From: Brevundimonas vesicularis
GTDB lineage: Bacteria > Pseudomonadota > Alphaproteobacteria > Caulobacterales > Caulobacteraceae
Length of the DNA stretch: 64,000 nt
Assembly (NCBI RefSeq): GCF_014204545.1
Contig: NZ_JACHLJ010000001.1
Location: forward strand, 1,550,001 to 1,614,000
Direction of reading: 5' to 3'
Position numbers and translations under genes: made by a program. Below the pieces are notes generated by a model. That model saw nothing but the letters and a program-made list of their open reading frames with translations, did no database searches and was not told the DNA's origin. Numbering within the stretch: the stretch's first letter is position 1; each line of letters starts with the position of its first letter. Below are positions 1,821 through 19,949 of the stretch, in pieces.

Positions 1821-1978
1821 TCCTCCCCCGAGAAGCGGAGCGGAACGGGGGAGGGGGACCGCGAAGCGGTGGAGGGGGCGGACCCGCGCTCCATTGCCAA
1901 ACGTTCGACATCCAGCCCGATTTCGCCCCCTCCACCACGCTACGCGCGGTCCCCCTCCCCCGCTACGCGGTGGAGGAT
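1820..1978. repeat. Dispersed inverted-repeat element, copy 1
   Basis: About 159 bases between hisF and hisIE. It begins ATCCTCCCCCG and ends GGGGGAG-type sequence finishing GGAGGAT. Nested palindromic blocks (GGGGGACCGCGAAGCGGTGG on the left, the complement CCACC..CGCGGTCCCCC on the right) would fold into a long hairpin. A second copy lies at 19090-19217 with near-identical arms and a different centre. Its end supplies GGAGG just upstream of hisIE. This resembles REP/MITE-type intergenic elements. Confidence 0.85.
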
Positions 1979-1986
1979 CAGGAACA

Positions 1987-2616
1987 ATGACCATGATCGA
2001 CCCGAACACCATCGACTTCGCCAAGGGCGACGGCCTGGTCCCTGTCGTGGTGCAGGACGCCGCTACGCTGCAGGTCCTGACCCTGGCCTATATGGATCGC
2101 GCGGCGCTGGATGAGACGATCGCCTCCGGCGAGGCCACCTTCTTCTCGCGCTCGCGCGGAGGGCGGTGGAGGAAGGGCGAGACCTCGGGCGACCGACTTC
2201 ACGTCGTCTCCATCACGGCCGACTGCGACGCCGACGCCATCGTGCTGGGCGTCAGGCCGGTCGGAAACGCCTGCCACCTGAACCGGACAAGCTGTTTCGG
2301 AGAGGCCGACGCGCCGGGCCTGGGTCGGATCGCCCGGCTGGAGCGCACCATCGCCGAACGGGCCGCCGCCGATCCGTCCGAAAGCTGGACGGCCCGACTG
2401 ATCGCACAGGGGCCCAAACGCATCGCCCAGAAGGTCGGCGAGGAGGGCGTGGAGACCGCTCTGGCCGGCGTCGCCGGCCCGGACGAGGAACTCGCCAGCG
2501 AGGCTGCGGATTTGATCTATCACCTGCTTGTTCTTCTCCATGCCCGTAACATGGTGTTTCAGGACGTGCTGGACGTGTTGGCCTCGCGAGCGGAAGCGGC
2601 CAAAGACAGCGGCTAG
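1987..2616 (+). CDS. hisI: Bifunctional phosphoribosyl-AMP cyclohydrolase / phosphoribosyl-ATP pyrophosphatase HisIE
   Basis: 209 residues with two domains. Residues 1 to about 110 are HisI, showing the metal site CDADA..NACHLNRTSCF; about 115 to 205 are HisE, with LERTIAERAAA and KRIAQKVGEEGVETALA plus the DLIYHLLVLL helix. It catalyses the second and third steps of histidine synthesis. The start at 1987 follows AGGAACA and the GGAGGAT end of the repeat; an ATG two codons later is also possible. hisI and hisE are separate genes in many alphaproteobacteria, so the fusion is worth noting. Confidence 0.93.
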   Translation: MTMIDPNTIDFAKGDGLVPVVVQDAATLQVLTLAYMDRAALDETIASGEATFFSRSRGGRWRKGETSGDRLHVVSITADCDADAIVLGVRPVGNACHLNRTSCFGEADAPGLGRIARLERTIAERAAADPSESWTARLIAQGPKRIAQKVGEEGVETALAGVAGPDEELASEAADLIYHLLVLLHARNMVFQDVLDVLASRAEAAKDSG

Positions 2617-17516: not shown

Positions 17517-17524
17517 CAGATCTT

Positions 17525-17651
17525 CCGCTCATCCCCGCGAAAGAGGGGACCCAGTGCTTTCGGTCGGCGCAGTGTTGGACCACGATCCAAGACGCGCTCA
17601 CAAGTCTTACCGCCCACGGAACTGGGTCCCCGCTTTCGCGGGGATGAGCGG
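17525..17651. repeat. Long inverted repeat of a second family
   Basis: Arms of 31 bases at 17525-17555 and 17621-17651 are reverse complements with one mismatch, beginning CCGCTCATCCCCGCGAAAG. A 65-base centre separates them. It fills the space between the histidine kinase and glnE. The CATCCCCGCGAAAGCGGGGACCCAG-type arm is a common dispersed intergenic repeat in related genomes (from memory), different in sequence from the CCTCCCCC element. Confidence 0.85.
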
Positions 17652-17662
17652 AGATATTGAGA

Positions 17663-19084
17663 TCAGCCTGTTGCGGAAGCCGGCGGCAGCACCAGCGCCA
17701 CCCGCAACCCCGGTCCGAAGTCGCCATAGGCGCCGGGGCCTTCGTCCAGCACGACCCGACCTCCATGGGCCTCGGCGACGGCGGTGACCAGCGAAAGCCC
17801 CAGGCCCGAGCCGGGTTCGGTGCGGCTGTTGTCCAGGCGCACAAACCGCTGGACGACGCGCTCGCGATCCTCTTCCGGCACGCCCGGTCCGGTGTCCGTG
17901 ACGGAATATTCGATCTCGCCCGACGAGCGGCGGCGCGCGCGCAGCTTCACAGCCCCGCCGGCGGGGGTGTATTTGATGGCGTTGTCGATGAGGTTGGCCA
18001 AGGCCTGGGCCAAGAAGGGCTGGTTGCCCTCGATCATCAGCCCCTTTTCGACCTCAGACGAGAAGTCGATGTCCTTGTCCTCGGCCGCTGGTTCGTAAAG
18101 CTCGGCCATGTCGGCGGCGAGGTCCGAGGCGTCCATGACCTTGGGATCCGGCGCCCCGCCCGCCTGGAGCCGCGCGATGGCCAGGACGGTGTTGAACGTC
18201 TTCAGCAGATGGTCGGCCTCGTCCAGGGCGATGCAAAGGGCGTCGACCCCGTCGATCTTGCCGGCTTCGGCGTCGATCAGGGCCACTTCCAGCTTGGCCC
18301 GCATCCGCGTCAGAGGCGAGCGCAGGTCGTGGGCGATGGCGTCGCCGGCGTGGCGGATGGACGCCATGGACGCCTCCAGCCGATCCAGCATGGCGTTCAG
18401 CCCCTGGCCCAATTCGTCCAGTTCATCGCCGGTGTGGCGCACGGGCGCTCGCACCTTCAGATCGCCGTCCTGCACCGACTGCACGACGCGGTTCAGCCCG
18501 GCCATGGCGTTTTCGACCCGCCGGCTGATGTAGAGACCGCCCGCCAGGCCCAGCAGCATGACCAGGGCCATGGCGCCCCACAGGGCCTGGGTCAGGCGCG
18601 CCAGATAGGCCTCGATGTCGCCGATGTCCTGACCGACGAACAAATGTTCGCCGCCGGCCAGGGTGGTGATCACCCCGATGGAGCGACGCCGCTGGACCTT
18701 GCCCTGGGCGTCCGTGTCGGTCAGGCGGAAGGTCTCCCAGTCGCTGGCGCCGGCCGGCAGGCTGAGGTCGATGTCGATCGGGGATTCGGTGATGTTGCCG
18801 GTGATCGTCTTTCCGGCCTTGTCGGTCAGCAGATACAGATACGGTCCGCCCCGGATGGAGCGTTCCACCAGGGCCTGGTTCAGGGCGTCGATGCCGCGCG
18901 TACGGTGGATCGCCGTCAGGGCGTCCAGCTCGATCTCCACATCCGCCCTGGCCCGACCTTGGGCCTCCGACGCCGAGGCGAAATAGACATAGGCCAGGAT
19001 CGCCCCCGCCGCCGCTACGAACAGCGCCAGGAACAGCAGCGTCAGCCGAAACGGCGTGCGGCGAAGGAGGGAGGGAAGGCGCAC
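17663..19084 (-). CDS. Sensor histidine kinase
   Basis: 473-residue membrane kinase. Transmembrane helices at about 12-34 and 164-186 enclose a periplasmic sensor domain; then a HAMP linker, H-box AIAHDLRSPLTR with phospho-acceptor His252, N-box NLIDNAIKY, and G boxes DTGPGVP and GSGLGLSL. Pairs with the response regulator upstream. The start is GTG at 19084; its only good Shine-Dalgarno (GGGGGAGGAT) is the terminal sequence of the repeat element lying between the two genes. Confidence 0.95.
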   Translation of the reverse strand: MRLPSLLRRTPFRLTLLFLALFVAAAGAILAYVYFASASEAQGRARADVEIELDALTAIHRTRGIDALNQALVERSIRGGPYLYLLTDKAGKTITGNITESPIDIDLSLPAGASDWETFRLTDTDAQGKVQRRRSIGVITTLAGGEHLFVGQDIGDIEAYLARLTQALWGAMALVMLLGLAGGLYISRRVENAMAGLNRVVQSVQDGDLKVRAPVRHTGDELDELGQGLNAMLDRLEASMASIRHAGDAIAHDLRSPLTRMRAKLEVALIDAEAGKIDGVDALCIALDEADHLLKTFNTVLAIARLQAGGAPDPKVMDASDLAADMAELYEPAAEDKDIDFSSEVEKGLMIEGNQPFLAQALANLIDNAIKYTPAGGAVKLRARRRSSGEIEYSVTDTGPGVPEEDRERVVQRFVRLDNSRTEPGSGLGLSLVTAVAEAHGGRVVLDEGPGAYGDFGPGLRVALVLPPASATG

Positions 19085-19089
19085 CTAGA

Positions 19090-19217
19090 ATCCTCCCCCG
19101 TTAACGGGGGAGGGGGACCACGAAGTGGTGGAGGGGGCGGCTTCAGCGCCGGTGTCTGGGGTCGCCCCCTCCACCGCCGTGCCGGCGGTCCCCCTCCCCC
19201 GCATTGCGGGGGAGGAT
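19090..19217. repeat. Dispersed inverted-repeat element, copy 2
   Basis: Same family as 1820-1978: starts ATCCTCCCCCG, inner blocks GGGGGACCACGAAGTGGTGG and its complement, ends CGGGGGAGGAT. The arms pair along most of their length. It fills the junction between response-regulator and kinase genes, and its left end, read on the minus strand, gives GGAGG before the kinase GTG. Confidence 0.88.
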
Positions 19218-19223
19218 CTCAAG

Positions 19224-19895
19224 TCACGCCTCCAACCGATATCCCGCCCCGCGCACGGTCTGCAGCATGGCGCGATCGAAGCCCTTGTCGATCTTGGAGC
19301 GCAGGCGGCTGATGTGGACATCGATGACGTTGGTCTGGGGGTCGAAATGATATTCCCAGACCTTTTCCAGCAACATGGTGCGCGTCACCGACTGGCCGGC
19401 GTGGCGCATCAGAAACTCCAGCAGTTGGAACTCGCGCGGCTGAAGATCGATCTCGGTCGTGCCGCGATGCACGGTGCGGCCGATCAGGTTCATTTCAAGG
19501 TCGCCGACCTTCAGCACGGTCTGGACGCCGCCGGTCTCGCGACGACGCGCCAACGCCTCGACCCGCGCGATCAGTTCGGCGAAGGCGTAGGGCTTGACCA
19601 GATAGTCGTCGGCGCCGGCCTTCAGGCCCGTGACCCGATCCTCGACCTCCCCCAGGGCCGACAGGAACAGGACCGGCGTCTGATCGCCGCCCTTGCGCAC
19701 CGTCTCGACCATGCCGACGCCGTCCAGGCGCGGCATCATCCGGTCCACCACGTAGACGTCGTAGCCGCCTTTTTGCGATTCCAGCAGGCCAAAGGCGCCA
19801 TCCACGGCGTGGGTGACCTCATGTCCGGCTTCGGACAGGCCCCGCACCATGGCGGTCGCCGCCTCGGCGTCATCCTCGACCACCAGAATCCGCAT
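19224..19895 (-). CDS. OmpR/PhoB-family response regulator
   Basis: 223 residues: receiver domain with acidic pocket EDD (7-9), phospho-acceptor Asp51 (VVDRMMP) and Lys in DDYLVKPYAF; C-terminal winged helix (QPREFQLLEFLMRHAGQSVTRTMLLEKVW..NVIDVHISRLR). The start at MRILVVEDD follows GGGAGGGG. It sits between a degP-type gene, whose terminator is just upstream, and its cognate kinase; envelope stress control is plausible by context. Confidence 0.95.
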   Translation of the reverse strand: MRILVVEDDAEAATAMVRGLSEAGHEVTHAVDGAFGLLESQKGGYDVYVVDRMMPRLDGVGMVETVRKGGDQTPVLFLSALGEVEDRVTGLKAGADDYLVKPYAFAELIARVEALARRRETGGVQTVLKVGDLEMNLIGRTVHRGTTEIDLQPREFQLLEFLMRHAGQSVTRTMLLEKVWEYHFDPQTNVIDVHISRLRSKIDKGFDRAMLQTVRGAGYRLEA

Positions 19896-19911: not shown

Positions 19912-19949
19912 ATCAAAATCGCCGCCGATGGTAGCGCATCGGCGGCGAT
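19912..19949 (-). terminator. Terminator after the DegP-type protease gene
   Basis: A 13-base perfect stem ATCGCCGCCGATG / CATCGGCGGCGAT with a 6-base loop, followed on the minus strand by TTTTGATT. It separates the protease transcript from the two-component genes, so the latter probably have their own promoter or depend on read-through. Confidence 0.8.

Follow-up and report, generated by a model that had tools for sequence, protein, structure and literature searches.

Why a tight operon junction should be filled almost entirely by a palindrome is the question raised by a regulator-kinase locus of Brevundimonas vesicularis, which lies in the stretch of 64,000 nucleotides analyzed here (the window) in a genome of 3.26 Mb. 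On the minus strand, the genes run in the order trypsin/PDZ protease, OmpR/PhoB-type response regulator, histidine kinase, and glnE (Table 1). The regulator stop codon (19224 to 19226) and the kinase GTG (19082 to 19084) enclose a junction of 139 nt (19085 to 19223), and, as the original prediction had it, nearly all of this is repeat, namely, a single palindrome of type A, a type whose arms consist of two small hairpins in a row. The RNA of positions 19080 to 19230 is predicted to fold with −110.4 kcal/mol, compared to a mean of −71.4 kcal/mol for shuffled sequences (z = −8.9; none of 200 shuffles equally good). The claim that the element brings a GGAGG close to the kinase start was likewise borne out, and the kinase has no other good start, because a TAG immediately precedes the GTG in the kinase frame and no other in-frame ATG, GTG, or TTG was found in the next 20 codons. 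In Brevundimonas sp. ASV9, B. vesicularis, and B. huaxiensis, the kinase is 98 to 99% identical to the window's. From comparison with related junctions, we conclude that the element is probably a gene-less member of a family of site-specific, homing-like DUF559 cassettes, left behind as a bare palindrome that fills the site.

Table 1. Features of the window discussed in the text (window coordinates)
Feature	Position	Strand	Basis
Histidine kinase (HAMP, HisKA, HATPase_c), GTG start	17663..19084	-	domain content
OmpR/PhoB-type response regulator; ATG at 19895, in-frame TTG at 19916 also possible	19224..19895	-	
Type A1 palindromic element, gene-less; arms ~19089-19140 and ~19162-19218 with a spacer between	19089..19218		
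GGAGG, end of the element's terminal repeat, 7 nt 5' of the kinase GTG; paired in the predicted hairpin	19092..19096	-	
GGAGG within the regulator's last codons; likely the native kinase Shine-Dalgarno sequence in element-free relatives	19229..19233	-	
Second A1 copy, between a His_biosynth-family gene (taken as hisF) and hisI	~1822..1979		
Type F palindrome in the kinase-glnE junction (17517-17662); gene-less form of GIY-YIG-bearing cassettes	17524..17652		

Orthologous junctions were gathered by a genome contig scan, of whose 137 relatives the best 80 were kept, and by searching 61 whole genomes. After 13 of 90 loci had been removed as duplicates (same junction and kinase start region), 77 distinct junctions remained; L067 to L083 (distant homologues, including L070, whose kinase match starts late), L084 (the window again), and L065 (a fragment) were left out, and for L012, L041, L111, and L112 the kinase start was assigned manually. 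Thirty-six junctions are short and element-free (0 to 23 nt; median, 9 nt), and 41 are long, with elements of type A (6), B (20), C (12), or other kinds (3). Class C is loose and was drawn by eye; BLAST splits it into seven clusters with pairwise identities of 49 to 82%, and L012 is labelled "C?".

On a tree of regulator plus kinase, junction state changes at least 24 times, compared to a mean of 36.5 after shuffling, so that state is clustered on the tree; presence and absence change 17 times. In the 20-row clade around the window (support, 100), every junction is occupied (A, 5; B, 7; C, 7; C-like, 1) and none is empty. L007, standing among A carriers, has a C element; compared in 150-nt stretches, it matches the window's allele at 92 to 100% identity throughout. 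At this resolution, the surroundings of the A/C difference show no imported tract, so that a copied segment would have to be short, and import of long tracts was discarded as the cause of the swaps. L046 has B-like arms (by eye) without a nuclease gene at the regulator-kinase junction. Among 11 junctions compared in one region of 21 genomes, with rough start calls, the regulator-kinase junction is the most variable. The ten others mostly vary little, the exceptions being the kinase-glnE junction, an element-like 263-nt junction after glnE, a 480-nt protease-regulator gap, and a gap of 596 to 756 nt with an uncounted gene. The 480-nt gap belongs to L121 and folds without a junction-long palindrome; the other 20 genomes have 54 to 88 nt there. 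Two further screens were not used for counts, namely, a whole-window synteny control, in which just three relatives matched most genes outside the central part, and an automatic inverted-repeat scan, which missed known elements, the window's junction element included. The regulator-kinase junction has been refilled repeatedly, palindromes being replaced there, and the suggestion of insertion at such places gains support well beyond the window from this filling and refilling in relatives.

In type B, arms related to those of A surround a DUF559 nuclease gene (20 of the 77 junctions). The interior of the 20 inserts is not palindromic (self-complement identity, 52 to 59%) and constitutes a reading frame, with variable columns mostly at third positions (by eye), that is uninterrupted in 19 of them. 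The gene is co-directional with the operon in all 20, and no junction of B length is left outside the B cluster. Pfam DUF559 (PF04480) was detected in both junction proteins tested (5.4e-23 for L052). In a full cassette, a DUF559 gene encoding ~110 to 135 amino acids is flanked by two inverted arms that form hairpins. Residues conserved without exception across 80 aligned nuclease rows (some being the same allele twice) include E58, D60, and G61, a pattern that we take to be consistent with a PD-(D/E)XK-type active site.

DUF559 is present in 57 of 61 genus genomes, and inverted arms within 170 nt were found at 23 of 30 DUF559 loci (among the best-scoring in the genus) versus 0 of 30 HisKA control loci; a few of the seven DUF559 loci under the arm threshold were truncated at contig ends and tested off-centre. 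When one representative arm each of A1, A2, B, and G was compared, every pairing aligned above all 200 mononucleotide shuffles; the two C arms tested align with none of these four, and F aligns with them only weakly. The view that A, B, and C are all unrelated was rejected, since the A, B, and G arms are related and the two tested C arms are not. By its arms, the window element is a gene-less relative of the hairpin-ended DUF559 cassettes. Type C has no known gene-bearing form, and the nuclease therefore does not explain it. A parallel pattern holds for GIY-YIG genes, for which inverted arms, of type F or other, were found at 19 of 30 loci; a full F cassette with a GIY-YIG gene (PF01541; 7e-15) is present in genome G020 (398-nt element, L308, G020:C1:1660829-1661041; cf. 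L142). The F palindrome at the kinase-glnE junction occurs in 9 of 21 genomes (the window's and eight close relatives), the other 12 having a 1- or 4-nt overlap.

Elsewhere in the own genome, the repeat matched 37 places, sorted by eye into 14 paired A1 copies, 18 paired copies of the sister form A2, two arms that enclose the DUF559 gene of a single A2 cassette (L171), two single arms (L164 and L181), and one coding-sequence match that is no copy (L178). A reading of 22 of these copies as half elements avoiding tight junctions was abandoned, as longer context revealed 18 to be A2 with a diverged second arm and two to be arms of the DUF559 cassette. The hisF-hisI junction, whose native state is an overlap of both genes, was readable in 10 of 12 genomes and holds A forms, F, a G-like palindrome, or the gene overlap. 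The hisI product (window positions 1987 to 2616) has both PRA-CH and PRA-PH domains, as in a fused hisIE. In L154 (positions 1565 to 1699), an A1 copy falls within a called open reading frame, toward its 3' end, perhaps forming a new C terminus. The A-family copies of L155 (positions 1532 to 1662), L204, and L210 end at nearly the same base of one junction in distant species, with several closer relatives empty, and may alter the N terminus of the downstream gene.

The nuclease gene was also followed across sites. All 60 matches to the B nuclease with an E value of ≤1.8e-30 in 121 genomes were examined; 37 lie at the regulator-kinase junction, including the 35 best-scoring ones (L332 being counted there on its kinase alone). 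The remainder occupy five recurring sites and one singleton, with DUF559 sub-lineages (L356 to L379) tied to the five sites, although the site groups rest in some rows on one shared neighbour (e.g., L356, L359, L360, and L364). Eight groups, with 31 distant DUF559 proteins taken as one, need seven changes on the nuclease tree, which is the minimum, compared to a shuffled mean of 45.1; this tree is short of columns relative to its number of rows. Each of the five other recurring sites forms a clade (support, 88 to 99), and the regulator-kinase group is the grade from which they branch.

The nuclease and host trees disagree. For L038 and L049, which the host tree joins as sisters with a support of 100, a clade of the two nucleases is rejected at a moderate level (p-AU, 0.0275). 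A nuclease clade is also rejected for L094 and L095, the sole B carriers of a 99-supported host clade (p-AU, 0.0038), and for L019 together with the five further B carriers in its host clade, also supported at 99 (p-AU, 0.0022); these groups were picked after the trees had been seen, and the host tree was built from genes beside the junction. Type A gives a similar picture. L048 carries A at the regulator-kinase junction in the window's orientation, 91 to 93% identical to the A of the window clade, versus 88 to 89% for the flanking regulator and 76 to 78% for the flanking kinase, and its sister L047 (kinase, 94%; regulator sequence, only ~120 nt) has an empty junction. With gaps counted, the A of L048 is 90% identical to the window's A, and 12 of the 13 other own-genome A1 copies share no more than 77% identity with the latter; this comparison lacked the hisF-hisI copy, and local BLAST identity reaches 86% over ~116 nt. 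Judging by these identities, A seems to have arrived at this junction in a distant species as well.

The match between site and lineage alone could be vertical descent; against this stand the host-tree conflict and the A of L048. Judged from the trees, the DUF559 nuclease lineages are tied to chromosomal sites and yet in conflict with the host tree. Part of the pattern is nevertheless explained by old vertical descent, because in most comparisons between B carriers, similarity in the nuclease gene does not exceed that in the flanking kinase gene. It is possible, but in our judgment unlikely, that the elements are ordinary MITE- or ERIC-like palindromes at permissive operon junctions, with the DUF559 forms as passengers and the site-lineage match produced by vertical descent of old insertions with frequent loss. 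Swapped palindromes do occur at other junctions too (hisF-hisI and the L155 and L165 sites), and nuclease identity mostly follows or falls below kinase identity, both as such an account would have it. It fits poorly with the tree conflict at one site, the sharing of A, identically placed and oriented, by the window clade and distant L048, the arms around most of the DUF559 genes examined, and the regulator-kinase junction being the most variable of the 11 compared.

Several known systems resemble the cassettes in part. With REPIN/RAYT systems, they share paired inverted palindromic units in intergenic DNA (here, two short ones forming one long hairpin), a gene-bearing partner, and many gene-less copies; unlike in those systems, the partner is DUF559 or GIY-YIG and lies inside the palindrome. 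Y1_Tnp (PF01797; RAYT) had no match in the own genome and one in 1 of 61 genus genomes, and mobilization by RAYT was rejected because no RAYT gene was found in the own genome. Free-standing homing endonuclease genes, such as the seg and mob genes of phage T4 and that of the Vsr-like I-Bth0305I, are likewise small intergenic nuclease genes with a lineage tied to one site and a patchy distribution. In the present case, related alleles at the same site carry a nuclease-family gene (DUF559, 20 of 77), and the site-specific nuclease lineage departs from the host tree, for groups chosen after the trees were seen. The differences are the bacterial chromosome, the hairpin arms, the gene-less palindromes at the same site, and the fact that homing is here proposed from sequence.

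ERIC, Correia (NEMIS), and MITE-like palindromes are also intergenic and 100 to 170 nt long, and the window element is, like them, a multicopy intergenic palindrome without a gene; it differs in its arms and in having relatives that carry a nuclease gene. The target-site duplication of ERIC is TA, and no clean target duplication was seen by eye at the hisF-hisI or regulator-kinase junction. NEMIS transcripts are described as RNase III substrates in PMC2229807. According to the same source, the CIR repeats (Chen and Shapiro 2003) of Caulobacter and relatives are intergenic repeats of ~110 bp, similar in kind to those found here, but have a conserved GANTC, whereas the junctions with any GANTC numbered 1 of 6 for A, 10 of 20 for B, 5 of 12 for C, and 0 of 3 for the other kinds. 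Rfam at the gathering score returned nothing but a tRNA for the window and, for two B and two C loci, just two miRNA-family matches below that score, both over the C element region of L087. No description of hairpin-ended nuclease cassettes was found in the literature on DUF559, GIY-YIG, and Brevundimonas palindromes, a search with most subscription journals outside its scope that leaves absence unproven.

We propose that a DUF559 nuclease would cut an unoccupied regulator-kinase junction and that repair from an occupied chromosome would copy the cassette into the cut junction (homing). If the gene were lost, or if a copy without the gene arrived, the result would be a bare palindrome, which would fill the junction and so protect the site; the window may carry such an allele. 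The operon transcript is expected to fold into one long hairpin with its base directly between the stop and start codons, and the GGAGG at the foot might serve as a ribosome site when the foot is opened by RNase III or by a ribosome that terminates there. Insertion within an operon could be tolerated because of this folding, since with the base so placed the effective stop-to-start distance would stay near the native 9 nt. In all 40 junctions of >100 nt, the outer pair spans >60% of the junction (the 75-nt junction of L058 falls below the length cut). Nucleotides left unpaired outside the hairpin have a median of 8.5 in these 40, versus the median length of 9 nt in the 36 short junctions; this value partly follows from a palindrome being inserted in a short gap, and yet stop and start stay adjacent.

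RNA-unfolding and reinitiation models of translational coupling are reviewed in PMC12548453, and in one screen covered in that review, structure right after the stop codon reduced coupling, which speaks against a neutral effect of the hairpin; the kinase level may be affected.

Tentatively, and with somewhat less than even confidence, we suggest that these elements represent a distinct class of bacterial mobile element, in which hairpin-ended DUF559 or GIY-YIG cassettes home into tight co-transcribed junctions, fold-back ends save the operon, and gene-less palindromes are the resistant alleles left behind. If so, many REP-like palindromes of the Caulobacterales would be scars of intergenic homing and not RAYT products. 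On this proposal, bacterial intergenic palindromes in genomes that have no RAYT transposase would gain an origin and the DUF559 family, so far uncharacterised, a possible function; the proposal would also explain why certain operon junctions act as hot spots. Close relatives with an empty, a nuclease-bearing, or a gene-less allele of the one junction also provide a natural series for hairpin effects on downstream translation.

The folding of the transcript bears on a further explanation, in which any long hairpin sets the kinase-to-regulator ratio (through an RNase III split, polarity, or coupling strength), so that palindromes of different origin are selectively kept and replaced. The complete occupation of the window's clade and the junction-long fold of all 40 junctions of >100 nt agree with this, as does the shaping of differential decay by RNA structure in Escherichia coli operons, reported in PMC5927463. 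We nonetheless consider it quite improbable, as 36 of the 77 relatives do without an element, the same swapping occurs at hisF-hisI and in other unrelated operons, and two other adjacent regulator-kinase pairs of the own genome have no element (30 of 45 HisKA loci examined; regulators detected solely by similarity to the window's regulator). These two pairs, together with the other operons that do carry an element, also led us to reject selection specific to two-component operons. Homing with a gene-less remnant remains our preferred reading.

That the element is present because it supplies the kinase's Shine-Dalgarno sequence, one reading of the original prediction, is very improbable, for although GGAGG stands at good spacing from the kinase start in all six A junctions, it is the element's own end, paired in the minimum-energy fold at all six, and a Shine-Dalgarno core (GGAG, GAGG, or AGGA) is present in 0 of 12 C junctions, which led us to reject supply as the element's purpose. 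The core is found in 6 of 6 A, 17 of 20 B, 2 of 3 other, and 23 of 36 element-free junctions, the stop codon being entered as TGA in every row. The A arms end TCCTCC...GGAGGA, so any A insertion just before a start yields GGAGG, and the match noticed at the kinase is simply the hairpin's end. Among the 11 own-genome A1 copies with a co-directional downstream gene, three have GGAGG 7 to 10 nt before the called start. At the level of sequence, the window's Shine-Dalgarno sequence is real, but it is not a general feature, nor is it evident that it accounts for the insertion. Just 24.6% of starts in Caulobacter crescentus have a Shine-Dalgarno site, and messages without one are translated with equivalent efficiency, according to PMC4117421.

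The kinase start was expected to differ in relatives lacking the element, and it does, GTG being used by 5 of 6 A carriers versus 0 of 12 C, 3 of 20 B, and 9 of 36 element-free junctions. Repeat-free relatives were further expected not to show the same Shine-Dalgarno sequence; this failed for the motif, as many have GGAGG, and stood for its place, the GGAG(G) lying mostly inside the regulator's last codons. By eye, the element-free junctions of L026, L031, L040, L064, and others contain a mini-hairpin (GGAGGC, a loop with the stop codon, and GCCTCC) that would pair the native Shine-Dalgarno sequence.
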